Shown in pieces: positions 3,538-49,195 of a DNA stretch of 64,000 nucleotides. This DNA is from a virus. Each line of letters begins with the position of its first letter. Within the stretch, counting starts at the first letter, position 1. Under the pieces are notes generated by a model. The model saw only the letters and a program-made list of their open reading frames with translations. It made no database searches and was not told the origin of the DNA. Location: IMG/VR virus record IMGVR_UViG_3300010885_033832, positions 1 to 64,000 of that record. One strand, written 5' to 3'. Position numbers and translations under genes: made by a program.

Positions 3538-3539
3538 AT

Positions 3540-5465: not shown

Positions 5466-8400
5466 AGCCGTCCACCTCCCACTCAGGAATAACTTCCAGC
5501 GTAACTTGTTCAGGGAACGTCACACCGTCTGGGACGGTAACGGTATATGACTCAATTTTACGAACCAGCACGGTGTCCCTAGGCTCAAGGTCGGTGCTCA
5601 GTCGAGCCTGAATAAACGGGTCTCGTACTACAATACTACACCAGTCGCCAGGGGCATATGATCCGACGATGGGCTCTAACGACCCGTTAACACTGATGGA
5701 AAATTCAGCCATCGGCGGTGCGGCCTCGAGAGCGTATCGTCGAGCGTACCCATAAAGCACGGTTTTATTGTTGGCGTCATCGGCCTTCTCGTCAAAGTCA
5801 AGTAGCGGCCATTTGCGTCCCCGGGAACCATCGAGGAAGTCGGTGAGGGTAGCAACGCCAATGTTTGATCCGTAGTCGTCCCCCGCGTTCTCATTTCCGA
5901 CAACAAACATACGCGTGGCCGAGTCCTCGGCACTCTCATTAACGGAGAACTGGCCGATGTTTCCGGGGTACTCAAAGACCACTTCGTCTGCTCCGTACCT
6001 GCTTACGGGCGACACCACCCCGGCCGCTGGCGGGTTGGGGTACTCGAGAGGGAGCATAACAAAAGTCTTGGTAAAGGTCGATGTCGCCTCATCGTACTCG
6101 CAGTCAATTCGATAATCGAATCCGTCCACAGACGATGCGTACTTTTCTAGTGCCTCTCCAACAGTCGTGAGCTCAAATCCTCGGTGGATAGGGGGGTCGG
6201 TGTTGATGCCAGACGCCTCCCGGGTTGAGAACAGCAGCCCGATGTCGGCACTACCGGGGAAAGGACCAAACGTGCTGGCAATTGCAACAGGTCGGACAGT
6301 AGCTGAGCCTTGACTAATGATGAGTTCAGGAGATCGGTTATCATGCGTGACAGAGTATGAGAACGTCTTTGCCGTTGGGGCCGGACTAGACAGGATAGTT
6401 TTTGTTCCGTTATAGATGCTAGTGGCTTTAGCGTAGGCAACGGAGCTGACTACATCCTCTGTAATTGATGTGGTTTGTGCTCCAGCAGAGTAGTCAAAGA
6501 CATTGTTTGTAGCGTTACTAATTGTCTTATTAGTCCCATTGAATACACTGTTTTTAATGACGACACCAGCCAGTACTGGATCAGTCTTAAAATTTCGGGG
6601 AGGTGTTACAGCAAACGAAAGAGTACCACCATCAACCTTTGTGATAGTCCAATCACCATTTAAGATACTAGTCTTGGGAGTTACCTTAGGGTACGGCGTC
6701 TCAACATTCTTATCAGGTCGTTCTACAGCGACATTGGCAACTTCTGCTCCGTTTTGAACATAGGTAATCTGCGTAGTGGAGACACCAGTAAGCGGGTAGG
6801 TTCCGTTCATCGGGCTGAGAAAAAGAATTTTAGCAGCGGCCGCTGAAGAAGTTAGTGGTGAGTCGTAGGAGTTATTGATTTGATACGAGATTGTCGTAGC
6901 TGAAACTGCAGATACTTCGAAGTCTCCATTAAATATGGCCTCATTAGTAGTTACTGTCCCATCATCAGATTTTTCAGCTACGACAGTTTTCCTACCAGGT
7001 AATTTTATGTCCGCATCCCCGAGCACTACCTCATAGCTAAAACTATTGCTAGTCATGGGTTCGGTAACTCGATGCTCCCCACTAAACCCACCCCCCATGC
7101 TAGAGATTGTGACAGTATCCCCAGAGCTAAAGTTGTGCGGTCCACTCGTTGTAACAGTGGCATATCCACGAGAAGCTCGCTTGCTAATTAAATTTTCAGA
7201 GTCGGTACAACCTTGAACTTTAATCTTGGTACCAACCGTAATTCCATGACCTGTAGGGACAGTTAAAGTTGCTACCTCACTACCAATTCTTTGCTTCTGA
7301 ATAGTGACATAGTCATATATATCTTGGACTACTACATTATCGCCAATTGAGTAGGGGTGCTTGTATGTAGCATCTGTGCTCAGAGTGAGCGTGACGCTGT
7401 TACTAGTGCGAGACTTGTGAGTGACTATTATCGGTGTACTGATCCCAGAAACTTTTACTGTGTCACCATTTTTGAAGTTGACTGATTTAGAAGTCTTGAG
7501 TGTAGCAATATTATCTTTAACGTACACCGACTCGATGAAAGCTGCATCTTGAAGCCCTGTGATGTCAACTACATCACTGTCATTGAGAATGTGGTCTACT
7601 CCAGTTCGGATTGTGGCAGTACCAGTTCCAGATGCAACGCGAAGTGCTCGGGAGGAGATGGAGATAAGCGGAGATACGTTGGCTACCACAACCGACTGAC
7701 CCGCAGTAAACCCGTGGGCTTTATCTGTCGTGATGGTCGCAACATTGGAGGTAAGTTTTGCCTGCACAACACCAACCGCGCTGGCACCAACAGTAGCAGT
7801 AGCATTGTTAAAAGAAGTTTCTGGGATGCTAGCTTTAGACGCTTCTTGGTATGTAAAAGTTGTTGCCGTTGCGGCAGTAATTTTTTGTACTCCATTAAAG
7901 TAGCCTCCATACCCAAGGGATCCGATTTGAGTATTGACTTCTACGGTCTGTCCAACCCTGAATCCATGGTCTGCAGCTGTTGTGATTGTAGTTAGGCCCT
8001 CGACCGCCATCATCTTTGTAACGGTTGCTTTCGACTTTGCTACTGTAGTTGGGGAGAGTGTTCCGGTCTTTTCAAACGTAAACGTGGTGGGACTGGGAAC
8101 CGAGTAGACGCGATATTCACCATCAAAGTTATCGTCAACATTTTTGATCTGAACAGCCTGCTCCGAAACCAGACCGTGCGGCTGAGCCGTTGTGATGGTG
8201 GCAAACCCGTTAGCCAGTTTCTTAGAGACAATGTCGAGTGAGTAGCTGAGTCCGGGCTCAATGTAGACGTTGGGAAAGTTGACACCAACAAAGTCACTGG
8301 CCATGCCCGACAACAAATCTCGAATGTAGTCGTAGGTATCGGTACGCACTGAGACGTTGACATTATTGTAGGTTCCATCTGGAATAGTCCGAGTCCCTGT

Positions 8401-25427: not shown

Positions 25428-25435
25428 TTAAGTTA
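25418..25435 (-). terminator. AT-rich hairpin at the end of the protease gene
   Basis: TAACTTA (25418-25424) pairs with TAAGTTA (25429-25435), loop of four. The stop codon of the protease fusion lies inside it. It is a weak 7-bp AT stem, so a mild attenuator or chance structure is possible. Confidence 0.35.
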
Positions 25436-28319
25436 GCAATCGAAGCAAACGATTCATCTGCGATGAAATATCTGCTTGACTGTATACATCCGATCCTGCT
25501 TGGAAACCTTTCAGTTCCCGGGTAGCAATATCGGCGTCCTCTTTCCCAATTTTATCTTCGACACGGGTTACCATGTCGTCCATCAACTTCTTCAGCGTAG
25601 GGGGAAGATCGCTGTAGCGAACTTTCTGCGCTTGGTTGTCAAATGGGAGAGGAAGATTTGCAATCGCTTTTCCAAGTTCTGTTGTGGAAGAGCGAACATT
25701 TTCGAGGGAGTCGGCGTTTAGTGCGCCAGCATCAAGACGATCAATGATGTCAATGAGGTCCTTTGAGGCCATAACGGAACCCAAGTAGTTTCCAGTGTTG
25801 TCAAGGTTCTCAATGTCTTCAATTTTTTGAAGAACATCTTGACTACCTGAGTCTCCAAGGTCTTGCTTCAGTCGAGCAAGAACCTGACGGAATCGACCCT
25901 GAGCATCACGAGGCTGAGTCTTGGGTGTGTACTTGACACGACCATCGTTCTTTCCCTCTTTGGCATCGATGATGTCCTGAATGTTGACACCAGGGAGGAG
26001 AATCTCCAACTGCTTGGGGTCAACCTCAGTAAGGTCAGGAGTGTTTCCGGCACGGATTTGGCGAACAGCCTCAATAACTGCATCTCCACTAGCAGAGGCC
26101 AAGATTGTCGCACGGTTACGCATTGACTCAAGACTGGCGGTGATGGAGTCTGAGGCCGCAGTCTTCCATTTTTCAGGAATCATCTTTGCTTCACCCAGCG
26201 CACGAGCGCGCTTGGCGATGTGCTTACGAACCTTGGCTTGGTCAGACTTCTTAGCGCGACCATATGCTTGGATGGCGTTCTTCAGGTCTGAGGCATTACG
26301 GATTGGATATGAGCCATCTGGAAGAGCCTGACCCTTGTCAGCAAGAGTCTCGCGCTCTTTTGAGGTAAACTTGGCAAACTCTGTAATAGCCGAGAGTTCG
26401 CGAACGCGCTGGACAATGTCGCCCGCGCTAGCCGTGAGGCCAGCCTCGAGGATACCCTGCTTGGAGAGAGATGCAAAGAACATGTCGTAGTTCTCTTCCT
26501 CCATCTCGTAGGGCTCTTCGGTCTTTTCAGAACGCTCTTCTTCGTACTCGTGCTTCTCATAGTTAGCGAGTGATACGCGCAACTGCCATGCCCACTTCTG
26601 GTGCATTTCAATGCGTCCACCAATGAAGTTGGTAATACCCTGCTCATTGACTTCATTTGCCACGTCAAAGACGGCCTTGAGAAGTCCAACAACACTTTCG
26701 TTGACTTCATGAAGATCAGCCACCATATCTTGAGGCGTTGCGTCACTACCGAGGGTAGACTCACCAAACTGACTCATTTTAGCAAAAGTAGCAAGATCAA
26801 AAGGAGCCTTGTATCCAAGCTTTCGGATATTCTCCGCAAGTGGATCAAGTGATTCTTCGACATCTTCATAAATTTCATCAAAGAGAGCGTGAAACTGTGG
26901 GAAGTCATTTCCTTCAACGTTCCAGTGGTAGCCCTTAACCTTGGCCGCAAAGACAGATACATCAGCGAGGGTCTGCTGGAGAATCTCAGCCAGACGTCCA
27001 TCAATCTTAGGAGCGTAGGACTTCATCTTCTTGTCAGCAAAGTCAACCCGAGCTTTTTCGGCAGCTGCTGTAAGAGCATTGCGCTCTTTTGTTTCGATGC
27101 GTGCAATGCGCTCGTGAAGCTCGTCAACGGGATTGGACTTCATACGAGCGAGAGTGGCAGCCCCAGCAGCAACCAGAGCCATGACCTGACCTGAGGCAAC
27201 GCGGGCACGAGCAATTGGGAAGCCGGGAACATTGACCTGGCATACGGCTACAAGCTCAAGTGAGCCGCGGATCGGACGCCAGTCACCCGAAGGTGCCGAC
27301 GCGCGAAGGGCACGAACCTGCTCAGGCTGGACTCCGGGGCGAAGTGCTCCAGCAACCCAGATTCCATAGCGGTCCTCGCCAGCGTGGACATCGGCAACGG
27401 CGCTCGCCGTGTCATCGTAGTGCTTGATGGCTTCGGCTGCTGATGCGGTAAGGTCGGCGTGTCCACCAGCGAGAGTGAGCTGACCAACAGGAACATCTGT
27501 TCCTCCGTCGGTGCGGATAACTCCAGTGTGGAAGAATCCATAGTCACTACGACTACGAGGTGGCTTAGTACCAAAGGGAAGACCAATGTGGTCGGTATCC
27601 CATGACGCAATGTGTCCGTATACATGACCGTCGTCAGAAACAGTAAGTGGGGTCGCCCTTTCAAGGCGTGGGTTTTCGAACCACATTGTGGGTGGTACGA
27701 CGGGGATCTGCTGAGCAACCATGCCGCACGCCACTAATGACGCGGCATCCATGGGGTCAGCATCGTCGGCGTATACGCCATCTGTCAACACAGTTTCCTC
27801 CTGAGTATAAGCTTCTTGCCCTTCATCGGCAAGAGCAATTTGACACTCTTGAAAAGCGGGCTTTGATACTATTGTAACCGCCATTACACGAGCCTTATTT
27901 ACAACAATTTTGTCTTTCTCGATTTTGTCCGGTTTCTTGGCCATATCCGAGACGTCTTTATCTTTTTCCTTGCGATTGTCTTCCGCTTCAAAGCGATCCA
28001 TGTCCGCAGAAACACCGCGCAGGAAACCGTTTCGGACGAGGCGCTCGGCCTCACGTCCATATGGGCCGTCATCGAAAGTGCCGTAGCAGTTTCCAATTCC
28101 GTTCTCAGTGCGTTCCATTTGATCGATGCGACCAACAACTACCGAACCATCGTGACCAGAGCCAGTCTTAATCTGCCACAGAAGCGGGAGGGGTAGTTCA
28201 CGAATCTCAATGGCGTCCTTGCGGAACATACGACCATCGCCAGACTCAACCTCCTCAGGGATAACAAGAGGAATAATAAACTTAGACCCGTTCATGCGAA
28301 TTTCACTGTCGTCGTGCAT
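25428..28319 (-). CDS. Prohead protease fused to a Dps ferritin-like domain
   Basis: The product is 963 residues. Residues 1-190 look like the actinophage capsid maturation protease, with likely catalytic His56 (SGHDGSVVVGRI) and Ser104 (GVSADMDRF). Residues 230-390 follow a pattern common in such proteases. Residues about 440-590 match the Dps/ferritin-like family: KGYHWNVEGNDFPQFHALFD and onward. All five ferroxidase ligands align with E. coli Dps: His465, His477, Asp481, Asp492 and Glu496. Residues about 650-720 resemble DUF6582 (LPDGSYPIRNASDLKNAI). Near 804 is a PRDAQGRF motif shared with neighbouring proteins. The ATG overlaps the previous stop (TAATG). The protease would mature the head; the Dps part could bind iron or DNA in the capsid. 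Confidence 0.85.
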   Translation of the reverse strand: MHDDSEIRMNGSKFIIPLVIPEEVESGDGRMFRKDAIEIRELPLPLLWQIKTGSGHDGSVVVGRIDQMERTENGIGNCYGTFDDGPYGREAERLVRNGFLRGVSADMDRFEAEDNRKEKDKDVSDMAKKPDKIEKDKIVVNKARVMAVTIVSKPAFQECQIALADEGQEAYTQEETVLTDGVYADDADPMDAASLVACGMVAQQIPVVPPTMWFENPRLERATPLTVSDDGHVYGHIASWDTDHIGLPFGTKPPRSRSDYGFFHTGVIRTDGGTDVPVGQLTLAGGHADLTASAAEAIKHYDDTASAVADVHAGEDRYGIWVAGALRPGVQPEQVRALRASAPSGDWRPIRGSLELVAVCQVNVPGFPIARARVASGQVMALVAAGAATLARMKSNPVDELHERIARIETKERNALTAAAEKARVDFADKKMKSYAPKIDGRLAEILQQTLADVSVFAAKVKGYHWNVEGNDFPQFHALFDEIYEDVEESLDPLAENIRKLGYKAPFDLATFAKMSQFGESTLGSDATPQDMVADLHEVNESVVGLLKAVFDVANEVNEQGITNFIGGRIEMHQKWAWQLRVSLANYEKHEYEEERSEKTEEPYEMEEENYDMFFASLSKQGILEAGLTASAGDIVQRVRELSAITEFAKFTSKERETLADKGQALPDGSYPIRNASDLKNAIQAYGRAKKSDQAKVRKHIAKRARALGEAKMIPEKWKTAASDSITASLESMRNRATILASASGDAVIEAVRQIRAGNTPDLTEVDPKQLEILLPGVNIQDIIDAKEGKNDGRVKYTPKTQPRDAQGRFRQVLARLKQDLGDSGSQDVLQKIEDIENLDNTGNYLGSVMASKDLIDIIDRLDAGALNADSLENVRSSTTELGKAIANLPLPFDNQAQKVRYSDLPPTLKKLMDDMVTRVEDKIGKEDADIATRELKGFQAGSDVYSQADISSQMNRLLRLLT

Positions 28320-31384: not shown

Positions 31385-34300
31385 CTATGCTAACTCGTCT
31401 GGGGTGAACCCCATCAATTCTAGTGCCTGCATGATCTCTTCGATTGAGGCGTTGTAGCGGTTAGCCACACCACCAGCAGAGTACTCAAGCGGTACGGACA
31501 TACGACCCTCAGACATGGCTTTCCGGTACTGAGCAAGAAGCGCATATCGGTCGAAGATCTCAGCCATAGTATCGGGCGAGAGCTGGCTCTGGCCTGTGGT
31601 CGGTGCTTGGCGAGAACCTGCGCCCTTGCCTGAATCTTCTGGCTTGTCAGCAGAATCTCCGCCCATCAAGAAATCAAAACTCTTGAGGATGTCGAGTACG
31701 TCCTCTGAAGCTTTTGGCGCTGGCGTCTCTTCTACTGGCTCGGCTGGAGGCTGCGCGGGCTTGCGCGGTGGACGTGGCTTACGCGGCGCTTTGGGGGGAG
31801 TAACTGTCTCAGTGGGCGGAGCCACTTCTGGGGTGTCTGGCGCAACAGGCACCTCTGGAACCTCAGGAACCTCAGGTGCGTCAGCAGGCTCAGCAAAGTA
31901 CGCGTTGAGCTTATCCAGCTCACCATCAAACAGCGCAGCAAACTGACGACGAACTTCTGGAATAACCACTCCTGCATTCTCTTTAGCTCGGAGTCGCTTG
32001 AAGATTAATCCTTCATAGAGTCCACGCAGGTTAGTTTTACGCTTATACAGCGCCTCAATTGCTGGATCGCCGGTGGGGATCTCGAGAGACGGATTGTTGT
32101 TGCGATCAACTAAGAACTTAGCAAACCCAAGAAGCTGTTCCTCCGAGAACTTCTCCAGAATTGGGAATGGAGCATCCCCGGGAATACGTCGCCAGTCTAG
32201 TGAGTTGTCGAAGGGCTCTGGGAGTGCCGGGAAGTCCTGGTAGTGAGTAGAAGTAGAAGTTGGGCTTCTCCACTGCACGCTTGGGTTCTCAAGGTTGATT
32301 CCCTCAGGCAGAGCCATCGTTGCTCGGGACGCCCGTCGTGCGCGGGAGCTGGTGCTGGCAGGTCCTGCGCCTTTCTCCTTGCCCTTTTCCTGCTCTTCGT
32401 AGGCTTCTTTGTACTGTTCAATGAAGAAGTCAGTTGGGTAGGCGGACGTGGTGGTACTCCAGATGTCGTAATCCTCGAGATCCTTTTTATCGATTCCACG
32501 TTCTTGGAGAAGATCCTCTACTGTGGCGGCGATTTCCAGGAGGCGAGCCATGTTACCAATATCCATGGCTTCTTCAGCTCGGGAGAGAGCGACATAGAGC
32601 ATGTTAGCCTGTTGCATAATCTCGTCATCTGAGAGATCACGGAGTTCGCGCTTTGGCTCACCATCTGCGTTCTTTTCAACTTCCCAGAAAGCAAAGACAC
32701 TGTCACCTACCTTAACATTGGGGGCTTCCAGACCTTTTGCGCCGTGCACGGTCAGCAAGGCCACATCGTAGCCCAGCTCGTCAGTGTAGGGGTCGCCAGA
32801 TTTAGTTCCATCAATCAATGCGCTGTACTTTGTACGAGCCGACTTGTCGACAGCGCTCATCTGGAAAACAGTTTGACCCGGACGGATTGTCTCATATTGA
32901 GCGTAGGCCACGGCGTAGAAGAGATCATCGGTAGATTCTTTGTTCTTTGCTCTACCGTCGATAAACTGACCAACTACCTCTTCGCGCGGCTTGGGCGACC
33001 CAACAGCCTTGCCGTTAGACCATAGTGTCAACATATCTTCGCCGTCAGAGCCTTCACTAACAATATATGTGCGAAGACTCTCAATGGTAGGAGTCCCCTC
33101 TTCATCAGGGGCTCCCTCGAGTCCAAAAGTAACAAGGTTTCCCGCTCCCAATGAGTACTTGAAGTCAATTAAGCCGGGTAGATTTTGCTTAAGAGAGGGT
33201 TTTTCGTTAGGACTATTGGTTCTCTTTTTGTCCTCTTTGCCCAGATTATTTGTGTAAAACTTAGAGAACTCTCCTGGAGTAGGTTTGTCGGCTTTTTCAG
33301 CCTCACGATACGTAGACTCAAATCCGAGGACATTGAGAGCGTCTTTACTGAGTGGGTTGTGCACCGAAGCATCTGCTTGGTACTTGAGACCACCGTCCAG
33401 GATTGATACAGTGACAATCTTTGTGCCTTCATTGCGCTCGAAGAGAAGCTCAACAACGCCCTCACCGAGGATTACACTAGGATTGCCAGCTTTGTTAATT
33501 TTATCTGGGTCCCGGAGTACGTTTCCGTCTTCATCACGGAGGGCAAAATTGGTGGAGGTGTAGAACTGCTTGACAATCGGCTTACCACCAGCGGCCCGGA
33601 ACTCAGCGTCAGTTGGCATACTGACATCGCCCATCAACTTGTCTTTGTCGAGAGCTTCAATTCTACTGCGGGCTTTGGCTGCTTCTTTGAGCAAGACATT
33701 GACTGTATCAGAGCCTGGGTACACATTTGCAATTCTCATACCCTCGAACTCTTTGTCGGTGGTGTTGAATTTAATTAATTCAAGCTCTTCCCGCAGTCTG
33801 TCTGAGATGTTTGGATCGGCCAGCAGGTCACGCTTGGAGCGCTCGAGTCGCTGACGGAAGCCTAACAATCCAATGTTCGAACCTGTGATTCTAAGGTTTA
33901 ACAGCTCGGAAGACTTTCCCTTTGTAACCGCGTACTTGAATCTGCCGGGAACGAGGGGCTCAAAGTCAAACCCATCACCATCAAGATCAGCCATCCGCTG
34001 AGGAATGTTGGGAGTTATTAGTCCCTCATACTCTTCGACATAGTCCTTTTGTCCGGAGATCAGGTATGAAGGCTTGGGAGATACAGTCTGACGGATAAGT
34101 CGGAGCATTTCTTGACGCCGTTCAACTGCCTTGACAACTACATCTTTCTTTATGGTTTTTCCGTCAGAAGATTTTTCTTTTACGGTTTTGGTATCATCCG
34201 AAATCATGCCAAATTCTTCGGCGACTCGGAGGAAGGCAATCACCTTGGAAGACAAGCCAGCACCACCTTTTCGGTACTTATCCATGATAGATTGCTCACC

Positions 34301-37300
34301 GCTAGTTCCAGGAGCGTTCAACCGAAGATCGGGGTAGTTTTGGAATACGCCCATTTCATGGTTGGCAAATGCCTCTTTACGAGACCTAGTTGTTGGTCTC
34401 ATTTGCATCAAACTTAGAGCTTCAATGTTTGTGATGAACTCTTCACGTCGGTTGGCGTTGATTGCAACGCGACGTCCAGCAGAGGCATATGTAGGTAGGA
34501 CACCTAAGAGTGCGGTGTTAGTGGCTTCGATGTGCATGTCAACTTGTTCAGTTGGCATAGAAGTGCCGCCAGCGCGCTTGATAGCCGCTTGAATTTCAGG
34601 AGTCATCTTTTTCAAAACTTCGGGGGGAAGAATTCTAGAGAAGATTTTTCCCTTGGGTGCTTCGTCTGACTTGCCAGAGGTAGTACGAAGCGGCTCACCC
34701 ATCAACCACAGTGGGACGTTCGCCACATCAACGAGTGCCTGGGGGGAGCGGTATGTTTTGGTAAGACCATTCTTGACGTCAGCGACGCTATCTGCTTGAT
34801 CGTAGAACTTGAACATCTGGTTGACAGCACCACGGAACGCGTACAGAGCTTGTCGGTTGTCACCGACTACAACCACTTGCACAGCTAGCCCATCTTCGTT
34901 CGGCATAGCAAGCTGGTTTACTAGGTCGATTTGTGCAGCGTTAAGGTCCTGAGCTTCATCAACAAACAGAGTGTCTGCTGTGGAACCTCCAGGGACTTTT
35001 TTCACAACATTGGCAAGGCCCGATAACTGCCAAATCTTTGACAACATAGAGTTAGTGACTGGAAGCGGGGAGAAGGGCTGTCCATCGATAGCGCTAAACG
35101 CCAGCTTATTCTTGATGGTGATAGGGACCGTTATATTTTCGTCCCACATCCTCTGTGCAATTTTGACATAGTCCCATGCAAGCGCCTCATCTTTAAGAAC
35201 CTTTTTTCTTAGAGCTGAGCTCATGTGTGGGAGCAGGTGATCTAGTGTTATTTTTCTATCTGCTGTAGACGCAAATCCATTCGCAATACCGCTCATGAGG
35301 TCGCTAAAAATAATATCAGAAGTTATTTTGTCATCTTTACTGATTACTACTTCTTCAATACCGTAAAGCTCGGTGGCCTCATAAGCAGACATAAATGAGG
35401 TGCTATCTAGTTTGGCGGACCTTCCGTCTTTGGCTCCCATCGACAAGTCGAGCTTGGCGTTGAGAGTGGCTCGTTTTGTTGCTTTGAGGTCAGAGTCAAC
35501 GTAGGTTGTGTTGGGGTCGTCGAGTGTCATTTCTACCCCGAAGAAACCCAAGCTGTCCAAGGTTCGAGCCTGTACGTTGGCTCCAAATCGAGCAGCGGCT
35601 TCCTCGGCAGTGCTACGGTTGAACGCGGCCAAGAGTATCTTGTGTTCGGGGAACATATCGGACAACAGTTTGAGCGTACTGGTTTTTCCGGTACCAGCGC
35701 GGGCGACAATCACCATACTCTGGTTCTGACCAAAGTCGTTGATGATCTTCAGCTGTTGCTCACTGGGGGTAATACCAGTCTGTTGGTAGACCTGCTCAGC
35801 GGTATACGTCCGGGCCTTGTAGCCACCCACTTTTCCTCGACGAATCTTGGAGAAGTTGTCAGGCTCGCCAGACTTGCTCACACGCGAGGCGGCCCCAGTA
35901 CCAGTTGAATTTTGCTGATCCGACAGGGCGTCGCGGAGGCTTTGCTTCTTATCGGAGATGAAGATCATGCCAGAGTCAATCTCGGAAATGAGCGCACTCT
36001 TTTGGGCATCGCTAATCGGGTCTTCTTCGGTGAGATCGGTTTCAGGGGAGACACGGTACCACTGGCCGTCTTCACCCTTGGCGTAGGTGTCCAAGGAGAC
36101 CTGACGAGCGCCCTTAGTTGACTCTCCATCTGCGCCTGCGATTACGTCGCGGGAAATACGAGCACCTGTTGGAGCCACATCGAAGATGTCCGCCGACGTT
36201 ACGCGGGTACGAGAAGCAGACTGGTTACGGTCCTGAGAAGTGACCGGACGCTCAGAGTTGGTAAGGCTCGGAGTGAAAGGAGCGCGCGAACCGCTAATCT
36301 CAGACTGACCGTCGGCTGCATCAAGAGCGTCAAACACCTCAGACGATGAATACGAACGCGTGTTGTCGGAGACTCCAGCATCGTCAGCCGCGTACCACAG
36401 TCCGTCGGATCCCCGGACAAAGTTGTCTACTCCGTTGGATACTATATCTCCAGCAGTTGCTGAGTTGAGATCGTCAACGGTAGAGATAGACATATCAATC
36501 TCATCGGGCAGCGCTGCACCAGCGCCCTTACCTTCTTCAGCATCTTCTTGTTTAGGTGCTCGTCCTCGGTCAGGACGGCGGCCCGATGCTTCGGTAAAGG
36601 CAGCGATGACACGCTGGACGGTTTCTTGTCGTTCTTGCGCCTTAGCAATTCGCTCGCTGTACCCATTGAGGATTTCGCGCTGTTCGTCCGTCAGGTACTG
36701 CTCGTCAGGGTTGTCAAGCGAGTTGGCGTATTCGCTCTTCTCGTTGTTTAGTTCCCCGAGAAGTTCTTGGTACTCACGCCACTTACGGAGTGCCTGTTTG
36801 CGTCGACGAGCAAACTCCTCAATGGGGATACTGAGGAAGTCGCGGTAGTTAGTCGACTCTGTGTAATCTTCTTCGTCCTCGCTAGCAGCAGAAGGCCTCG
36901 ATCCGTCGCCATCACTCGGCTCGGGCTCTGGTTTGCTTGGCTCGCTGGGTAGGGCACCCGGACCCTTGGGTGGTGGGTTACCTTCAAGAGGGAGGAATGG
37001 ACCAGACGGTCCTCGGCCATCAGGCTGTCCGTCTTGAGAGTCGCTTTTACCCTTCTTTCCCAACTCAATGAGTGGGATAAGTCCGCCAAAGAATTCGATG
37101 TGCTTGATGTAACCAACCATGTCGTTTTCGTCGTACATCTTGCGAATCTGGACAGAGCGCTTATACGCCCAACGATCCCAGAGTGCCCGCTCATTGGGGT
37201 CCAGTCGCTGAAGGAACTTGTACGAGTCAGTGACAAAGTCTGAACGCTCTTTTTCGGCGCGCTGAAAGTTAGCGAAAGCTGCGGCTTTTTCAGAGGCAGA

Positions 37301-40300
37301 AGCATCGGGATTTTTCTGAGCTTCGCGCGCATCAAAGTAAGCACGGCGGACACGATCTTCAAGGTAGTCGATGTTTGAGATGATGTCGTCGACCTTGAGA
37401 GGCATGAACTTGGTATCTTTGAATGCCTGCCATGCATTGAATACGGCTCGGGGATCGGCCCCGACCGGACCATCAGCAAAGCGATCTGCTGTAGGGGAGT
37501 AGGGGGCTCCTTCGTCGTTGACGTAGTCCCCACTCTTCATCTCTTCGTTGATGCGGTCGTCGAGATCCTTAATGGATATGTTAAGTTTTCGCTCTTCAGC
37601 AGCAATCTGGTTCTCAAGGATGGTGATACGCCCACGCCAGAAGTTGAAGTCGCGAAGCAGCTCAGTGCGGCTAATGATGCCCATTTGATCAGCGTTCTCG
37701 ATCATCTTACGCACACGGTTGTATTCGCGGTGAGCATCTTCGAGGCGACGCTGAATATCGATTAGCTTGCGGACACGCTTGTCTTGGAAGATTGGAGCGT
37801 TAAAGTCGGTACGCGAGTTGATGGGTAGTTCTTCTTCTACCAACTCAGGGTATTCATCCCACCAATTTTTCTTACCTCGGGGCTCCTTGTCGCGTGGACG
37901 TCGACCGCCACCGCCACCGCCGCCTCCGGATCCCCCACCACCGCCGGGTCCGCCCGGACCACCAGGAGGGGGAGTCTTACCGCCAGGCTTGGCTCCTTCG
38001 CCTTGACCAGTGCCAGGTTGTTCGCCTCCTTGACCGGATTCTCCGCCTTCTTCTGGTTCAGGGTCAGGTTCAGTGTAGTCTTTTCCGTTGATAACGCCAG
38101 CCAAAAGTTTGCGACGGCGCATTATTTCTTCGATGCGACGTTTTTTCTCAGCCATCGACAGACGAGCGTCCTTGAGGCGATCCATCTCAACACCGTAGTC
38201 GTTGTAGAGGCCACGCAGAGCATCTTTTTGATTGTCGTTTAAGTTCTGGCCCAAATCCGTAAGGTCTTGATTAACTCCATCAACAAAATCAGCGTAGTTT
38301 TCAGCGTTAAGGAAGAACTTTCTGGGTTGATCTACACCCCTATCGTCCTTTTCAGTGCCGTAAACAACCTCAACTTCACCAATCTCTTCGATGTCGTTCA
38401 GGATTTGCGTAAATGACTCATACGCATTGAGAGCGTCCTTGAAACGCTTAATAGTTTCTTTAGCTTCGGCCTTTTCGTCTTTGTCCTGGTCCTTATCCTT
38501 ATCCTGCCCAGCACCAGTATCACGCTGGCCCTGACCGCCAGAAGTGGGGGGAACTTCTTCCTCGGCACCGTCAGGAATACCGGCGTCCTGGTTGATAAAC
38601 ATCTGACCAGTGCCCTCCATGCGTTTGAGCTTGGAGGGGTCATAACGACGCTTCTGGATGTCGATTAGATCGGCTGCGGTATAGCTTTCAGGGAAGAATT
38701 TTCCAGTTGCTGGGTTGAGTCGTCGCCACGACGTAGTTCCGTCTTCTCGAACTTGGTAGAACTCAAAGATGTTCTTTTTGGTTTCGTCGTCCTCGTACCG
38801 AATAACTACACGCGATCCCCGAGGAACTCCGGTTACATCTGCAATTCCCGTAACAGGGGTGAGGTTTTCTTCGTCGGTGGTGGTTGTGGTTTCATCGTCT
38901 TCGTCGCCGGGACCCTGCAGGTTGATATAGCCGTTTTCAGTCTTGGCAAAAAGCTCTTCGCTAGAGAGTCCTACAGCGTCTTCGCCGTCGGCCACATTAA
39001 ACCAAAGACCGTCTCTCTTGGTGTAGAACTCGTCGTCAAGCTCAGGGTCGTTAATGCGGAAGTCAGCTTCTGCGCCCTCGACGGAGTCATTAAGTTGGTC
39101 GACACTATCAACTTCGTCGCCCAGAAAAAGCGTAATGTTGTCGTCAGTAAGTTCAGAGATAAGATCAAAAATTTCTTGGCTATCAGGAGTATCTCCAACG
39201 AGTTGTTCAATATCCTTGAGATACCCTCGGAGATCATCGCGATCTTGACGGTTTGATAGATCATCCAGACCTTCAATAGTGCTGTTGAAGTCGTCAATGA
39301 GCGAGAGTACTGCATCACCGTCTTCTTCACCGAGCAATGCCTTGAGGCGCTCGCGTTTGAGCTTGCGAGCAATCTCTTCGTCGGAATCTTCCGTGGTGGT
39401 AGCGGTGCTGGCAGCCTTGAGCTTTTTGATGGCTGCTTCGTGAATACGAGCCAGCTTTTCAAAATTAGCTTTGTTCTCGAGGTTGTCGTCAAAACGTCCC
39501 GAATCGATGGCGGCCCTGATTTGGTCGAGTTTTGCTTGGAGAGCTTCGACGTCGTTGTTCATTTCCGCAATGAGATCGTCGACATCCTTATCGCTGAAAG
39601 CATTGGGGTCGACTTCTTCTTCGATACCGAGGAGTTTGTTGACCTGCTTCTTGATGTCTGAAAGTGCTTCTTGAGCAAGCTCCTGCACTTCAGGGTCGTC
39701 GTCAAAATCTCGCATTCGAGTTTCAACAGCCTCAACCAAAGTGTTCAGCGCCTCAATAAGGCTTTGGCGGTCTTCGTCAGAAATTTCATCCAGCTCGTCG
39801 ACGTAGTCGAATAGGTCTTTCACATCACTCAACGCTGAGTCAACGTCTGGGTCTAGCAACGAGTTCTTTAGGTCATTGTATGGATCACCCGTTGAGCTGA
39901 CCGCTGTCTCTTCTTCGGAGAGGTCCGCCACCTTTGAGTTGATATATCCGTTGTATACCTCGGTCGGGATAGCGACGTTGTCTTCCCGAGACTTGTTGAT
40001 GGCAAAGTCAATGTCATCGCGGTACTTGGTCAACTCGTCAACACGGTCGGGAGACAGGCTCAACTGTCCGTTGGCGTTGCGATTCAGAATGTCGTCAACT
40101 AGTTTGCGTCGCTTCTCGAGATTCTGGACATACGCTTTATTGGTCGGAGAATCAAATCCGCTAGGGGTTTTGGCGCGATCGATGGCGGCTGCCAAAAGCT
40201 TCATAACAAGTTCTGCTCGAGCTTTGCGCTCTAGAGTGTCATTGAAGACTCCATCATCGTAGTCCTTCTTGACTGCGTCATAGTCAGCCTGCATCTCATC

Positions 40301-43300
40301 AATAGAATTGTTGTACTTATCAAGAATTTCTTGGATGTCATCGTCAGAAACAGCAGTAGACGTTGGTGTAGCCGGGACTGCTGGGGCTGCAGGAGCCTTT
40401 GTCGTACGAGCGGCTTTTTTGGCTGCATCAATTTTATCTTGCTCAACTTTGAGAGCTTGGAATGCTTCAGAGGAGAGTTTGACACCCTTATCGTTGCGGG
40501 GGAACTCTCCCTTGTACAGGTTTGAAATGCTACCTTGATCTAGGGCAGCAGCAAGATCCTCGCCACTAGCAATTCCAGTGTCTGGGTTGTTAGCGTCGTA
40601 CCAGTACCCGTCGTCGCCTCGAACTACTTCTTGGAACTTTCCGCCTCTTCGGTTGAAGAATACTCGGTCTCCGGTTTTACCATTGAGAAGGAATGCCTTT
40701 GTCGCACGCGTGAGTACGTTGGCCTGTGGCTTAGGGGTTGCAGGAGCTGCAGGTGCTTTGGCCTCAGGCAAAGTCTCAACTGTATAAGTACGCTCCTTGA
40801 GGAACTCTGCTACTTGCTCTTCGGACGGCACAACCATGCCGTTCCAGACATTCTTTGTATTCTTCTTGAGTAGCTGTGCGCCGTTGACCTTGCCGTCTGG
40901 ACCAACAGTGAGTCGCATGGCCTGCTTGCGACCTGACTGAGGTGTGAAAATAACTGTGTTGAGTGGCAGAGTCTTGAGCTCATCAAGCGTCGTTACTTGA
41001 TCCCCTACTTTGAGGGGTGCAATCTCCGGCTTGGCTGGGCCGACACGTTCGACGGTTGACTCTCGTTGGCCAAGCTGGTAGGTGATGTCCTTGTCTGAGG
41101 GGAGCACTGCTTGTTCGAGCCACTGGCCACTGTTAGTCTGTAGCTCTCCCTTAGAGACGAGGTTGTTAGGGTCATTGCTGTCACTACGCGTGTAGCGGAA
41201 TGGAAGATTAGTTCCCTGTCGCAGAATGATGGTGGACCCGGCAGGAAGGTTCTTAAAATCTTTAATGGTGGCAACATTATCGCCGACCTTAGGGGTTGCA
41301 GGAGTCGCAGGAGTTTGAGCCTGCTGACGAGCTTTTAGCCAATCTCTGAGGGCCTCTGTCTTTTTTATGTACGGCTTAACTCCGTCTGTCCAACCCCAGT
41401 CCATGTCCACATCAGAGGCGTCTAAATCCTTGGTTAGTTTCTTAGCTTCGAGGAACTTGCGATTTCCTTGAATGACGAGTCCCGTGGGGATGTGATATAT
41501 AACAGATTCCCCTGGACGTCCACCAACAACACCAAGAAGACCGCTCGGAGAGATGTCTTTCTTCTTAATAACAGCAACCCCTAGGCGGAGAGATTGTCCA
41601 TTTGGACCGAATTTTTCGATCTCAATGTCGCCGTTTTCTAGACGAGTAACACGGGTTGTTCCCCCATCCTCGCCGTAGGGAACAAATCGCTCTGCGGCAG
41701 TCTTTACGTCGGCAGGGGTTGCAGAAGTTGCAGGAGTTGCAGGAGTTGCAGTCTTTGCTACAGGATCCTTGAGCAATTTTTCTGGAACAACAGACTTAGC
41801 CCGGGGAGCCCCCTTGACGGGGAGCTTGTCCGTACCCTTGACATACCTCTTGAGCAGAGTGGGCCAGACCTCAAAAGTGTAGTGAGACTGAAGTGCGGCA
41901 ATCGCGTTCTGAACGTGGGTCTGGTCTGCATCTGGGCGACCCTTCCACTCATTGATTTTGTCGACAGCCTTGTAGTACTCGGCCATGTCTGGGTCAATCT
42001 CTGCCAATTTACGCAGGAATTCGACGCCAGCTGTTTTATCTTTTTGTTCCTTGGCAGCGGCAGCGCGAGCGTCCCAAAGCTTTTGCCCAAACTCAACCTT
42101 TTCGTCGTAGGACATGTTTGAGGTGTCTACGGAGAGGAGTTCGTCGGTAGCAGTGTCTGCGTCTGTCGCGGCAATCTCTTCCTCGACGATGAAAGCGTCA
42201 TAAACTTCCTTGCTAACCTCTACCTCGTGGTCTTCAGGGTCGGTTGCGGATGTTCTTTCATCTATACGAACAAAATACTTGTTAGTGTCCGGGTCAAATC
42301 TCTTAGCGTAGCCACCCTCTTTGAGAAGTTGTTCGAGTGTTAGAGCCTTACCGCTGGCTCGTCTCTCCGCTATGTTTGTGTTTAGGCGGCGAGCCAGACC
42401 AGGAGTAGCGTCAACTATAGCTTGATCAAAAGAGCCATACTTTTTGAGATCAGGAACAGTGGCGTCGCGGGACACCAAATCAAAATCTTTAATCTCAGTA
42501 GGATTTTCGTACTTTCGTTCAAGATCTTTTCTGGGGTTATCCGTGGCAAAGGTAATAATGACGCCTCGTCGTTCGTTGTCACGTCCAATCCCAGACCAAG
42601 TGACCCCAGTTGAGATGGATCGAACAGTTACGGGTTTTCCGTCAACTGTAACCACATCTCCAGCGCGAAGTTCTGAGAAGGGGAGCTTCTTAGGTGCATT
42701 AGTGTCGGCTGCAGGAATCGTGGCAACGGGGGTGGATTTTACATCTTTCTTAAACTTAACCTGTTCGAAGAGATCGTCGCTTCTAAAATCATCAAGGAGC
42801 ATGTCCTGCAACTCTTCGTCGTCAAGACCAAGTGCAGTAATCTCGGCGTCAGCCGCGTCCAGAAGATTGAATGCCTCTTCGCGCGTGAGGTCTTGGTTGT
42901 CCTTGGAAAGTGCGGCCTGCTGATTGATCTTGGCTTCGAGGGCTTTGAAGGCGTCGGTCTTTCGGAGGGCGAGGAGTTTGGTGGCGTCTTCATCTGAAAG
43001 CTCACGTCCGGTGACGGATTTGAAGTGCTCTTTGATCTTGGGGCGTGAGAGGTCTTTACTATCGACGTTGAAGTGCTTCTTGAAAGCGTCTTTGTAGGAC
43101 TTTTGGAAGTTGTTGACGTCGGCAATGAGGCTATCGTCGCGACCAGGAGTCTCGACGTCGGTAATATCCTCAGCGGTGACTGGGGTACCCTCTTTTACAG
43201 GAGGAACATCAGGAACGTCTTTGCCGTAAACATCTTCGAAAGACTCAGCTGGCTTGTCGCCGTTCAGTGTGGCATAAAGCTCTTTTGCCTTTTTACCTTG

Positions 43301-44662
43301 ACTGCGCTTGACAAGACCCTCAATGATACTACTTACGGTCTTCTTGACGCGGTTATCGTATTCTTCTTTAGTCTCTCCTGGGCGCGCCCTGAGGTTGAAT
43401 TTAGCACTAGTCGCTAGGTTTTTAGCAAGAGTCAATGTATATCCGTAGTCTTGCTCGAGAAATTTTTGATCGGCGAGTTTGCCAAACTTTTCTTGGTTGG
43501 CCGCTGCGGCTGCTTCGCGCTCTTCCTTGGTCATAGGGGGGGAAATTGGCGTCTGGAATCCGACTGACCGCTCCCGAGCGGGGGATTTTTTAGGCTTTTC
43601 TACAATCTCGCCATCTTCAGTAATATCGACAACATCTTCTTCATCTTGATTTTTAATGTCTTTATTAGATGGCTCTTCAGGCGTGACTACTTCTGGCTCT
43701 ACTTTTGTATCTTCTTGGGCTTTTGTTTCTTTGTACTGAGCGCGAGTAGCATCAATCTTCTGCTGGAGGGCGGCGTCTTTCTTGTCGAAGTCTTTGTCCA
43801 TGGGGTCGAGGTCTTGTTGCTTACCCTCGAGGGCAACAATCTCGTCAGCGAGTTGTGCTGAGGTCTTTTCGGTCGGCTTCTTAGCTGCAGCACCCTTACC
43901 CTTGGCAGTGCCGCTTGAGAGAGCGTCCCGGAGGGCACCCTTGGCACGGTTCTGCATGGCCGCGGCTTCTTCTTTAGACTCGGGGACCTTCTCGCCAGCC
44001 TCTTCAATGAGGGTGCGGTTGACCGTGGCAATAGCGTCTACCCAGTCGTCAGCCTCGTAACTCTCTCCGGTAAGTTTGTCTTTGATGAGGAACTTGCCCT
44101 CAGACGTAGTTGTGACGTCGAAGTCGCCACCCTCAGTTTCGTAGTGACGGTTGCCATCCGAATTAGTTCCGAGGTCTTTCCACCCAAGGGGGACGTCGCG
44201 ACGAGTGATGCTGGAAAGATCAGGAGTAGCGGTCGTTACCCGAGCTCCAGCAGGAGTCTTGACTCCGGCACGCTGAAGTGCTTCGGTGGAGAGTTCGGCC
44301 TCAACCTCAGAGGTTGCGCTGACGTCGACGTCATAGAATCCAGAGCGGATCCCAGCTTCTCGAGCCTGCTTGGGGTTGACGTAAATTTCAATGTTCTTGT
44401 CACCAGAACCAGGCTGGGTGACAGTACCTGTGATACGAACGGGCTTGGCGTTACCGTTCTTGTCGCGACCGAGAAGAGCAAACAAACGACGAAGGGCGCG
44501 CTTGAGGCCTCCACCCATATAAATCCACTGACCACCGTTTTCTCCGCCTGGGTCACGGAGCTGTCGACGGGCTCGAAGTGAGAGGGCTAGGCGGGAGTTA
44601 CCACCTGCTGCGATGAGCGCCTCAATCTCGTTGAAGTCGTCGAAGTCGTTATTGTCCGTCAC
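31385..44662 (-). CDS. Giant 4425-residue protein with embedded superfamily 1 helicase
   Basis: It starts at GTG with a GGAG site. Residues 35-52 carry LRDPGG...GGQWIYMGGG, shared with the zincin protein upstream. Long acidic/lysine-rich stretches, Ala/Pro/Thr linkers and repeated DGxWY modules (near 1355, 1877, 2755, 2865) follow. A Gly/Pro-rich hinge lies near 2207-2261. A complete UvrD/Rep-like helicase spans about 2955-4070: motif I ARAGTGKTS near 2987, motif II VDEAQD near 3232, motif III VVGDNRQALYAFRGA, motif IV TYRSP, motif V VHGAKGLEAPNV near 3972, motif VI LYVALSRAEEAMD near 4024. A proline-rich segment (about 4250-4315) precedes the end. Its place between portal and protease genes suggests a virion protein, perhaps ejected with DNA. 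That is inference. Confidence 0.88.
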   Translation of the reverse strand: MTDNNDFDDFNEIEALIAAGGNSRLALSLRARRQLRDPGGENGGQWIYMGGGLKRALRRLFALLGRDKNGNAKPVRITGTVTQPGSGDKNIEIYVNPKQAREAGIRSGFYDVDVSATSEVEAELSTEALQRAGVKTPAGARVTTATPDLSSITRRDVPLGWKDLGTNSDGNRHYETEGGDFDVTTTSEGKFLIKDKLTGESYEADDWVDAIATVNRTLIEEAGEKVPESKEEAAAMQNRAKGALRDALSSGTAKGKGAAAKKPTEKTSAQLADEIVALEGKQQDLDPMDKDFDKKDAALQQKIDATRAQYKETKAQEDTKVEPEVVTPEEPSNKDIKNQDEEDVVDITEDGEIVEKPKKSPARERSVGFQTPISPPMTKEEREAAAAANQEKFGKLADQKFLEQDYGYTLTLAKNLATSAKFNLRARPGETKEEYDNRVKKTVSSIIEGLVKRSQGKKAKELYATLNGDKPAESFEDVYGKDVPDVPPVKEGTPVTAEDITDVETPGRDDSLIADVNNFQKSYKDAFKKHFNVDSKDLSRPKIKEHFKSVTGRELSDEDATKLLALRKTDAFKALEAKINQQAALSKDNQDLTREEAFNLLDAADAEITALGLDDEELQDMLLDDFRSDDLFEQVKFKKDVKSTPVATIPAADTNAPKKLPFSELRAGDVVTVDGKPVTVRSISTGVTWSGIGRDNERRGVIITFATDNPRKDLERKYENPTEIKDFDLVSRDATVPDLKKYGSFDQAIVDATPGLARRLNTNIAERRASGKALTLEQLLKEGGYAKRFDPDTNKYFVRIDERTSATDPEDHEVEVSKEVYDAFIVEEEIAATDADTATDELLSVDTSNMSYDEKVEFGQKLWDARAAAAKEQKDKTAGVEFLRKLAEIDPDMAEYYKAVDKINEWKGRPDADQTHVQNAIAALQSHYTFEVWPTLLKRYVKGTDKLPVKGAPRAKSVVPEKLLKDPVAKTATPATPATSATPADVKTAAERFVPYGEDGGTTRVTRLENGDIEIEKFGPNGQSLRLGVAVIKKKDISPSGLLGVVGGRPGESVIYHIPTGLVIQGNRKFLEAKKLTKDLDASDVDMDWGWTDGVKPYIKKTEALRDWLKARQQAQTPATPATPKVGDNVATIKDFKNLPAGSTIILRQGTNLPFRYTRSDSNDPNNLVSKGELQTNSGQWLEQAVLPSDKDITYQLGQRESTVERVGPAKPEIAPLKVGDQVTTLDELKTLPLNTVIFTPQSGRKQAMRLTVGPDGKVNGAQLLKKNTKNVWNGMVVPSEEQVAEFLKERTYTVETLPEAKAPAAPATPKPQANVLTRATKAFLLNGKTGDRVFFNRRGGKFQEVVRGDDGYWYDANNPDTGIASGEDLAAALDQGSISNLYKGEFPRNDKGVKLSSEAFQALKVEQDKIDAAKKAARTTKAPAAPAVPATPTSTAVSDDDIQEILDKYNNSIDEMQADYDAVKKDYDDGVFNDTLERKARAELVMKLLAAAIDRAKTPSGFDSPTNKAYVQNLEKRRKLVDDILNRNANGQLSLSPDRVDELTKYRDDIDFAINKSREDNVAIPTEVYNGYINSKVADLSEEETAVSSTGDPYNDLKNSLLDPDVDSALSDVKDLFDYVDELDEISDEDRQSLIEALNTLVEAVETRMRDFDDDPEVQELAQEALSDIKKQVNKLLGIEEEVDPNAFSDKDVDDLIAEMNNDVEALQAKLDQIRAAIDSGRFDDNLENKANFEKLARIHEAAIKKLKAASTATTTEDSDEEIARKLKRERLKALLGEEDGDAVLSLIDDFNSTIEGLDDLSNRQDRDDLRGYLKDIEQLVGDTPDSQEIFDLISELTDDNITLFLGDEVDSVDQLNDSVEGAEADFRINDPELDDEFYTKRDGLWFNVADGEDAVGLSSEELFAKTENGYINLQGPGDEDDETTTTTDEENLTPVTGIADVTGVPRGSRVVIRYEDDETKKNIFEFYQVREDGTTSWRRLNPATGKFFPESYTAADLIDIQKRRYDPSKLKRMEGTGQMFINQDAGIPDGAEEEVPPTSGGQGQRDTGAGQDKDKDQDKDEKAEAKETIKRFKDALNAYESFTQILNDIEEIGEVEVVYGTEKDDRGVDQPRKFFLNAENYADFVDGVNQDLTDLGQNLNDNQKDALRGLYNDYGVEMDRLKDARLSMAEKKRRIEEIMRRRKLLAGVINGKDYTEPDPEPEEGGESGQGGEQPGTGQGEGAKPGGKTPPPGGPGGPGGGGGSGGGGGGGGRRPRDKEPRGKKNWWDEYPELVEEELPINSRTDFNAPIFQDKRVRKLIDIQRRLEDAHREYNRVRKMIENADQMGIISRTELLRDFNFWRGRITILENQIAAEERKLNISIKDLDDRINEEMKSGDYVNDEGAPYSPTADRFADGPVGADPRAVFNAWQAFKDTKFMPLKVDDIISNIDYLEDRVRRAYFDAREAQKNPDASASEKAAAFANFQRAEKERSDFVTDSYKFLQRLDPNERALWDRWAYKRSVQIRKMYDENDMVGYIKHIEFFGGLIPLIELGKKGKSDSQDGQPDGRGPSGPFLPLEGNPPPKGPGALPSEPSKPEPEPSDGDGSRPSAASEDEEDYTESTNYRDFLSIPIEEFARRRKQALRKWREYQELLGELNNEKSEYANSLDNPDEQYLTDEQREILNGYSERIAKAQERQETVQRVIAAFTEASGRRPDRGRAPKQEDAEEGKGAGAALPDEIDMSISTVDDLNSATAGDIVSNGVDNFVRGSDGLWYAADDAGVSDNTRSYSSSEVFDALDAADGQSEISGSRAPFTPSLTNSERPVTSQDRNQSASRTRVTSADIFDVAPTGARISRDVIAGADGESTKGARQVSLDTYAKGEDGQWYRVSPETDLTEEDPISDAQKSALISEIDSGMIFISDKKQSLRDALSDQQNSTGTGAASRVSKSGEPDNFSKIRRGKVGGYKARTYTAEQVYQQTGITPSEQQLKIINDFGQNQSMVIVARAGTGKTSTLKLLSDMFPEHKILLAAFNRSTAEEAAARFGANVQARTLDSLGFFGVEMTLDDPNTTYVDSDLKATKRATLNAKLDLSMGAKDGRSAKLDSTSFMSAYEATELYGIEEVVISKDDKITSDIIFSDLMSGIANGFASTADRKITLDHLLPHMSSALRKKVLKDEALAWDYVKIAQRMWDENITVPITIKNKLAFSAIDGQPFSPLPVTNSMLSKIWQLSGLANVVKKVPGGSTADTLFVDEAQDLNAAQIDLVNQLAMPNEDGLAVQVVVVGDNRQALYAFRGAVNQMFKFYDQADSVADVKNGLTKTYRSPQALVDVANVPLWLMGEPLRTTSGKSDEAPKGKIFSRILPPEVLKKMTPEIQAAIKRAGGTSMPTEQVDMHIEATNTALLGVLPTYASAGRRVAINANRREEFITNIEALSLMQMRPTTRSRKEAFANHEMGVFQNYPDLRLNAPGTSGEQSIMDKYRKGGAGLSSKVIAFLRVAEEFGMISDDTKTVKEKSSDGKTIKKDVVVKAVERRQEMLRLIRQTVSPKPSYLISGQKDYVEEYEGLITPNIPQRMADLDGDGFDFEPLVPGRFKYAVTKGKSSELLNLRITGSNIGLLGFRQRLERSKRDLLADPNISDRLREELELIKFNTTDKEFEGMRIANVYPGSDTVNVLLKEAAKARSRIEALDKDKLMGDVSMPTDAEFRAAGGKPIVKQFYTSTNFALRDEDGNVLRDPDKINKAGNPSVILGEGVVELLFERNEGTKIVTVSILDGGLKYQADASVHNPLSKDALNVLGFESTYREAEKADKPTPGEFSKFYTNNLGKEDKKRTNSPNEKPSLKQNLPGLIDFKYSLGAGNLVTFGLEGAPDEEGTPTIESLRTYIVSEGSDGEDMLTLWSNGKAVGSPKPREEVVGQFIDGRAKNKESTDDLFYAVAYAQYETIRPGQTVFQMSAVDKSARTKYSALIDGTKSGDPYTDELGYDVALLTVHGAKGLEAPNVKVGDSVFAFWEVEKNADGEPKRELRDLSDDEIMQQANMLYVALSRAEEAMDIGNMARLLEIAATVEDLLQERGIDKKDLEDYDIWSTTTSAYPTDFFIEQYKEAYEEQEKGKEKGAGPASTSSRARRASRATMALPEGINLENPSVQWRSPTSTSTHYQDFPALPEPFDNSLDWRRIPGDAPFPILEKFSEEQLLGFAKFLVDRNNNPSLEIPTGDPAIEALYKRKTNLRGLYEGLIFKRLRAKENAGVVIPEVRRQFAALFDGELDKLNAYFAEPADAPEVPEVPEVPVAPDTPEVAPPTETVTPPKAPRKPRPPRKPAQPPAEPVEETPAPKASEDVLDILKSFDFLMGGDSADKPEDSGKGAGSRQAPTTGQSQLSPDTMAEIFDRYALLAQYRKAMSEGRMSVPLEYSAGGVANRYNASIEEIMQALELMGFTPDELA

Positions 44663-47563: not shown

Positions 47564-49195
47564 TTAGACCTCGGGTTCTGCAAGTGGGACAGGAGGAAGT
47601 GCCTCAGGTGGTGCTTCACCTGGGTTTACGGGTGTGGGTCCGGGAGCGCCGAGAGGCTGACCTGCGAGAGCCTGTTGGACCTCGGGTGGGATCGGAGCGG
47701 GGTTGTTAGCCTGTGCGCCCTGACGGATTGTCTCCATAACCTCGGGTGCGAACGCCGAGAGCATGGCTTCGGTGAGTTCGGGCGTGATAACGGCGCGAGA
47801 CTGAAGCAGGCGGAGCGTAAGTTCAGTTGGCGTGGGTGCATCGGCGTCGGAGAAGCCGTGGGCACGTCGCCACGTCTGGTACGAGATCGCCATGTTGCTA
47901 AATCCAGCATCTGCATCAGCCGCGCGGTCGTTTCGAGTCGAAACTTCGGCGGGGTCATACCAAACTACAACGCGAGAGATCTCTTCGTCGATGAACCCGA
48001 GGCTTTTGAGGTAGGGGCGGAGGTAGACAACGGTCAACGCGTCAGACAGGAGCAACATGATGGGTTCGATGTGTGCCTTGTAGAGGCTTTCATCAATTTG
48101 GACGGCGTTGGAGTACTTGACGTTGGCAAGACCAGTAACGGTGTCCTTAGGAACGTCGAGGCCCTGCAAGATACGCTCCAAAACTCGGTCTGAACGCTGA
48201 GCGAGGGCTGGGTCAAAGGAACGCTCAAACTTAAACTGCTTAATCTTGTCGGCAAGCTCGGCTGGGCCGCGAATAATGAGTGGCACGACGGCGCTCGCAG
48301 AGGATTCGTCCGAGATCGGAGTCGTCATGGCGTCAACGAGTTGATCTTCGAAGTCGTCCTCCTGCTCCTCAGGCAAAATGTTGGTTCCTTGCTCGTCATC
48401 GTCCGAGTAGGGGTAGTCAGCATCGGCAGAAGCGGCCAAAGAGAGGCCGTCGGGGAGGTAGAGTGCTCCGGCGTTGAGGCGCGAGCGTGCTGTAGCGCGG
48501 AAGGTGCGGTTCAAGAGGAGAAGTTCGGCGCACAGGTCGAGGACACCGCGCATTGAAGAGTCTGGCTCGTCCGAGAAGCGGGGGTGAGCTCGCCAAATGC
48601 GTCCGACGAAGGCTGACTTAGAGATAGGGATAGAATCTCCTGCTGGTGAGTCGCGTCGCTGGAGGATGGAGTAGTTTCCACGTGCGTCCATGACTAATTC
48701 GTCGGTGGAACGGATATCCCAGCTCTCAAGGAGGCCAGAACCAATCATTTCGGGACGCTGGACGAGGTAGCACTCGCCTGTGACGCAGAGATTGAGAGCA
48801 GCGTCGCGCAAGAGGCCAGCCTGACCACCAAAGGTTGAGCTGAGGCGAGCAAGACCACGTTCTGCAGCCTCCGCCATACCGTCGGGGATCATATCGGACG
48901 AACGAGCGTTGACTGGAGTCTCGGCGGGGTTCTCAATAACGGCTGCGTAGAGCTTGATTCGGGAAACGATAGACGCAACGAGGTTGAAGGCATACTTGAC
49001 TTCACCAATAGCGTCGTAGTATTCCCACGCCTCTTGTTGCCACTGCGTTCCGCCCGATGCCTTGCGACGTTTGAAGGCTTCGCCCTCGGCTTTGTCGTCG
49101 AGACGCATGCGAGTAGCAGCAGCGGTCAGTCCTCGGGGGGCTGCGTAGGGGGCAGCGGTGAAGGGGATGCCCGAGTCCTTGCGAAAAACGCCCAC
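47564..49195 (-). CDS. Portal protein
   Basis: The product is 543 residues with GTG start. Features of siphovirus portals: QQEAWEYYDAIGEVKYAFNL near 52, LRDAALNLCVTGECYLVQRP near 130, GVLDLCAELLLLNRTFRATA near 220, a helix/stem region with LQGLDVPKDTVTGLANVKYS near 340, and a Pro/Ala-rich C-terminus. The portal forms the dodecameric ring at the packaging vertex and works with the terminase. It is followed by head genes and preceded by small genes, with the terminase several kb upstream. Motif and length agree with the family. Confidence 0.9.
   Translation of the reverse strand: MGVFRKDSGIPFTAAPYAAPRGLTAAATRMRLDDKAEGEAFKRRKASGGTQWQQEAWEYYDAIGEVKYAFNLVASIVSRIKLYAAVIENPAETPVNARSSDMIPDGMAEAAERGLARLSSTFGGQAGLLRDAALNLCVTGECYLVQRPEMIGSGLLESWDIRSTDELVMDARGNYSILQRRDSPAGDSIPISKSAFVGRIWRAHPRFSDEPDSSMRGVLDLCAELLLLNRTFRATARSRLNAGALYLPDGLSLAASADADYPYSDDDEQGTNILPEEQEDDFEDQLVDAMTTPISDESSASAVVPLIIRGPAELADKIKQFKFERSFDPALAQRSDRVLERILQGLDVPKDTVTGLANVKYSNAVQIDESLYKAHIEPIMLLLSDALTVVYLRPYLKSLGFIDEEISRVVVWYDPAEVSTRNDRAADADAGFSNMAISYQTWRRAHGFSDADAPTPTELTLRLLQSRAVITPELTEAMLSAFAPEVMETIRQGAQANNPAPIPPEVQQALAGQPLGAPGPTPVNPGEAPPEALPPVPLAEPEV

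Follow-up and report, generated by a model that had tools for sequence, protein, structure and literature searches.

The window analysed here, a 64,000-nucleotide stretch of viral DNA, encodes a protein in which a head-maturation protease is joined to a Dps (ferritin-like) domain that retains the core metal ligands of the family. Fusions of this kind recur in the head modules of many phages. On balance we think it probable, though by no means certain, that the Dps domain is enzymatic cargo of the virus head.

A Dps domain inside a head-maturation protease

The reading frame is uninterrupted, and the gene lies in the head module, next to that of the major capsid protein. Its parts, and the neighbouring genes referred to below, are as follows.

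25428..28319, minus strand: 963-aa fusion of a head-maturation protease, a Dps domain and a C-terminal region, a single ORF (PHROG 859, 5e-93; PHROG 21470, 9e-84; PHROG 18402, 3e-57)
27720..28292, minus strand: N-terminal protease region, residues 10-200 (Peptidase_S78, 7e-4; PHROG 3244, 3e-4)
28152-28154 and 28008-28010, minus strand: codons of His56 and Ser104, respectively, both invariant in family alignments
27054..27701, minus strand: middle domain, residues 207-422 (PHROG 18402, 3e-57; PHROG 29860, 6e-53; tblastn)
26550..27002, minus strand: Dps (ferritin-like) domain, residues 440-590 (profiles, PDB, AlphaFold, Foldseek)
26925..26927, minus strand: codon of His465 (E. coli Dps His51), invariant in 334 domains
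26889..26891, minus strand: codon of His477 (E. coli His63), kept in 333 of 334 domains
26877..26879, minus strand: codon of Asp481 (E. coli Asp67), not conserved; Ala in relatives L002 and L004
26844..26846, minus strand: codon of Asp492 (E. coli Asp78), invariant
26832..26834, minus strand: codon of Glu496 (E. coli Glu82), invariant
26370..26552, minus strand: residues 590-650, an acidic linker (net charge -10) that follows the Dps domain
25431..25922, minus strand: C-terminal region, residues 800-963; a 183-aa gene of its own in phage DSL-LC01
23304..25307, minus strand: major capsid protein, the next downstream gene (PHROG 777, major head protein, 1.8e-78)
47564..49195, minus strand: portal protein (PHROG 776, 5.8e-103)

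Also in the head region is an open frame of 4,425 aa, 13.3 kb long (window positions 31385-44662, minus strand); Arthrobacter phage Mimi has a counterpart annotated as DNA helicase.

By its N-terminal part the fusion is a member of the actinophage family of capsid maturation proteases (PHROG 18402), hundreds of which share the middle domain. The match to Pfam Peptidase_S78 is weak and falls slightly below the Pfam cut-off, and a profile–profile comparison of the window protease with S78 was also weak (probability 19.6%, E 0.0012), over an alignment of 67 columns that takes in Ser104 and the VTIV..PAF motif. His56 and Ser104 are the putative catalytic residues, an assignment made from motif context and from this weak S78 alignment. 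An AlphaFold model of residues 1-600, built with just seven sequences, had a mean pLDDT of 43.5; in it a long helix is predicted, with low confidence, directly before the Dps domain (residues 397-431).

An earlier note on this DNA had placed a Dps domain within the protease fusion, and both profile searches and structure prediction confirm that residues ∼440-590 form one. Pfam PF00210 (Ferritin) matches residues 445-586 (E = 2.2e-20), PHROG 3636 matches the domain with E = 8e-28, and the best PDB sequence match is the Pseudomonas Dps PA0962 (8ff9; E = 1.6e-19). Prediction of residues 430-600 by AlphaFold from 62 aligned sequences, the check that the note had suggested, gave a four-helix Dps fold (pLDDT 91.8, pTM 0.85), with four long helices and the short BC-loop helix of the Dps type. 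When the model was compared with the PDB by Foldseek, each of the best 50 matches belonged to the Dps family (TM 0.74-0.93 on target length). A search with PF00210 across the 95-kb virus record found no second ferritin-like gene. The domain shares its fold, its HWN motif and a four-ligand intersubunit core with bacterial Dps proteins such as those of Vibrio cholerae (3iq1) and Pseudomonas aeruginosa (PA0962, 8ff9); unlike them, it is part of a phage protease, is very acidic and has no free DNA-binding tail.

Two other explanations were rejected. Chance similarity, or a dead domain, is ruled out by the profile, fold and ligand evidence together with the dN/dS ratios given below. An artefact of ORF joining or of assembly is ruled out because the fusion recurs in contigs from many metagenomes and in different protease backgrounds.

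Conservation of the metal site

All five ferroxidase ligands (His465, His477, Asp481, Asp492 and Glu496) are present in the window protein with the spacing of the E. coli protein (12/4/11/4). The earlier note had regarded all five as conserved, which proved correct for four of them. Among 334 domains (120 from fusions, 135 from standalone phage proteins and 79 from cellular ones), positions 465, 492 and 496 never vary and position 477 varies once; the four ligands are retained in the 120 fused domains with one exception. Position 481, by contrast, is variable even between close relatives. Over 62 domains it is occupied by E (26), A (15), G (11), Q (5), S (3) or D (2), with Asp found solely in the window protein and its closest relative, L003; L002 and L004, also close relatives, have Ala. 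Loss of ligands in close homologues, which the note had said would count against its reading, thus occurs at one position of the five, the other four being kept. We do not take the variation at 481 as a sign of lost function, because cellular Dps proteins vary there too: 79 cellular relatives carry mainly Met (46) or Glu (30). Nor does it argue against an active core, since the nearest cellular Dps proteins are not conserved at this position either. The Dps domain is under purifying selection (dN/dS 0.03-0.13). The best reading of the sequences is that the mini-ferritin of the window protein has an intact four-ligand core site, for which iron chemistry is predicted.

Recurrence and relatives of the fusion

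Related phages were surveyed, as the note had proposed, in four further scans of viral contigs with Dps profiles and local HMMs; the seeds were picked from earlier matches, and the resulting numbers are therefore not a census. The scans yielded at least 254 distinct Dps proteins and at least 79 distinct fusions of Dps to a head-maturation protease, nearly all on viral contigs; one (L169) comes from a contig assigned by binning to an Actinomycetota genome. The fusions span three protease backgrounds and both domain orders. Among the matches listed, Dps precedes an S78 protease in 68 proteins and follows it in two, seven are of the window type (the window included) and one is of the XkdF type; the 79th (L049) is an S78 protease with two Dps domains. 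Outside the 79, about eight more proteins, truncated where their contigs end, are probably S78 fusions too. The window's own form occurs on three IMG/VR contigs at 88-97% identity, one of them cut by the contig end. The protease identity of sampled fusions was established with Pfam and PHROGs (E down to 3e-48 and 5e-61), and the catalytic His and Ser are retained in all 67 Dps-fused S78 copies that cover the site. The gene order is terminase–portal–[Dps/protease]–major capsid protein: at 70 loci of the S78 and XkdF types, the portal gene lies upstream in 64, terminase upstream in 58 and the major capsid gene downstream in 64. The note's author had not seen such a fusion described for this protein class, and the open-licence papers that we searched likewise contained no earlier description of a Dps or ferritin-like domain fused to a maturation or prohead protease.

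Other domains were met in these proteins. A Cys-rich domain is fused into some Dps polyproteins (L032, L048, L049, L250, L251, L266, L308 and L311); it is a separate gene in DSL-LC01, where it is annotated as 'high potential iron-sulfur protein', and a motif search did not find it in the window. The L156 protein at 2807-5824, similar to a minor head protein, joins Dps to a Zeta-toxin-like kinase domain, and two proteins (L316:2-1993 and L319:4325-6262) consist of a HAD-phosphatase-like domain, then Dps, then an S78 protease.

The window's protease part (PHROG 18402), in the same place in the head module but without the Dps insert, is present in its nearest isolates: Actinomycetia phage DSL-LC01, Microbacterium phage Cece and Arthrobacter phage Mimi. 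Peptidase_S78 prohead proteases are comparable in protease part and head-module position, and those of the isolates likewise lack Dps. A similar picture came from the Dps–S78 protein of L358: 642 isolate records match it and none covers 80%, the best matches listed being to the protease half only. Its Dps-bearing half is matched by 18 isolate records, which, where annotated, are separate Dps genes or hypothetical proteins. Standalone phage Dps proteins (PHROG 3636, including that of phage Privateer; PMC7881722) belong to the same domain family; those of the isolates examined (EP335, S-SRM01 and Bmoc) are encoded by a gene of their own away from the head module, whereas here Dps is a covalent part of the head protease. 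In one large standalone group the Dps gene lies directly 3' of a portal gene of the window's family (PHROG 776); a second group has it between the terminase and portal genes. A third group (L090, L092, L100, L164 and others) has Dps on the strand opposite a baseplate gene cluster, unlike the head-module context.

In a tree of 114 Dps domains the phage sequences for the most part form one group (support 89, unstarred), separate from the majority of the cellular sequences. The arrangement with Dps before S78 requires five changes on this tree, at least three of them being forced by starred branches; the window type requires two, one being forced, and the window domain stands apart from those of L032, L044, L143 and L153. 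The tree was built from few columns by a quick search, and the changes may be gains or losses. Among the window, L002 and L004, dS is 1.1-1.2 in the Dps part (26550-27002 in the window) and 0.40-0.81 in other parts of the gene, a hint that recombination has exchanged the Dps module.

Possible roles of the fused domain

Maturation proteases of tailed phages enter proheads, and protein cargo has a precedent in the internal head proteins of T4, which go into the prohead and are substrates of the maturation protease; T4 uses a cleavable targeting sequence, whereas here the candidate cargo is covalently part of the protease. We suppose that the fusion is made alongside other late head proteins and that its protease part would carry the Dps domain into the assembling prohead. 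There the domain would be expected at least to dimerise, because the conserved metal site sits between two Dps subunits, and may assemble into 12-mers. Its predicted activity within the head is to bind Fe(II) and oxidise it, with H2O2 or O2 as the oxidant. Cleavage by the protease may later release the Dps part; the folded oligomer should be too large to exit the shell and so would stay with the genome, which it would shield from damage driven by iron and peroxide. Delivery of a ferroxidase into the head would explain the selected metal site, the acidity of the domain and its link to a protein that acts in the prohead; the simplest benefit would be that packaged DNA is shielded from iron and peroxide. 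Because the fusion recurs in many phages, a head-directed role is much likelier than it would be from one odd fusion.

Some of the evidence from relatives favours head cargo and some does not. Placement of a standalone Dps gene immediately 3' of the portal gene, or between that gene and terminase, counts for it in related phages. Mass spectrometry of CsCl-purified virions of Proteus phage Privateer detected its standalone Dps (PMC7881722), which indicates that phage Dps proteins can be virion-associated. Against it we count the absence of the domain from DSL-LC01, Cece and Mimi, the variable fifth ligand position, the many standalone phage Dps genes outside head modules, and the proposal that gut-phage Dps protects the host cell (PMC8008677).

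That last proposal extends to the fusions if, late in infection, Dps guards the host cell or keeps free iron low, with fusion to an abundant late protein setting only its dose and timing. It was put forward for standalone gut-phage proteins, and it fits both the position of isolate Dps genes among non-structural genes and the standalone group on the strand opposite baseplate genes; yet the fusions repeatedly involve the sole prohead-acting enzyme, through many origins or shuffles, rather than random late proteins, and we consider this explanation quite improbable. Dps might instead be an oligomerisation module that orders the protease and the C-terminal region into the inner core of the prohead, with metal merely stabilising it. 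Dps proteins form 12-mers, the domain lies between the two parts to be ordered, and the low-confidence helix at residues 397-431 is just ahead of it. The near-absolute conservation of four ligands across domain orders and protease backgrounds nevertheless exceeds what oligomer contacts need, Dps is found before, after or between other domains, and close relatives do without it, so that we regard a purely structural role as unlikely.

The earlier note had offered a virion-internal iron or DNA-protection function, or packing of DNA. The Dps fold within the protease, the four-ligand core and the head-module setting speak for a role inside the virion, but binding or packing of DNA by the domain found no support. 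Condensing or anchoring DNA on its way into the head, in the manner of E. coli Dps in the nucleoid, would be in keeping with the domain's family and with the place that it would occupy in the prohead as DNA enters. The fused domains, however, are more acidic (mean net charge -12.8) than standalone phage (-7.9) or the nearest cellular ones (-7.0). The window domain is at about -13 and is followed by the acidic linker. Both its ends are fused, leaving no Lys-rich free tail of the positively charged, DNA-binding E. coli type. Judged by charge, an indirect line of evidence, DNA binding by such strongly acidic domains is unlikely, and we give this role very little credence.

Phage Dps-like genes have so far been read as helpers of the host cell under stress, and the repeated link to the capsid protease points instead to the virion. 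If head cargo is the right reading and Dps is placed by the protease, an iron- and peroxide-handling enzyme would sit in the virus head beside the DNA. The fusion suggests selection for protecting packaged DNA from iron and peroxide, and it offers a case in which delivery of enzyme cargo by protease fusion can be tested directly. Encapsulins (PMC6668986; PMC11202242) combine a shell of the HK97 lineage with a ferritin-like enzyme; the likeness is an analogy, and theirs is a bacterial compartment without DNA, its cargo targeted by a short peptide and not by fusion to a maturation protease. We tentatively entertain the broader idea that phage heads may serve as iron- and peroxide-handling compartments. 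Widespread uncultivated phages would then build Dps into the virion by way of the maturation protease, as a viral counterpart of ferritin-loaded encapsulins that may protect the packaged genome or carry iron chemistry to the next host.
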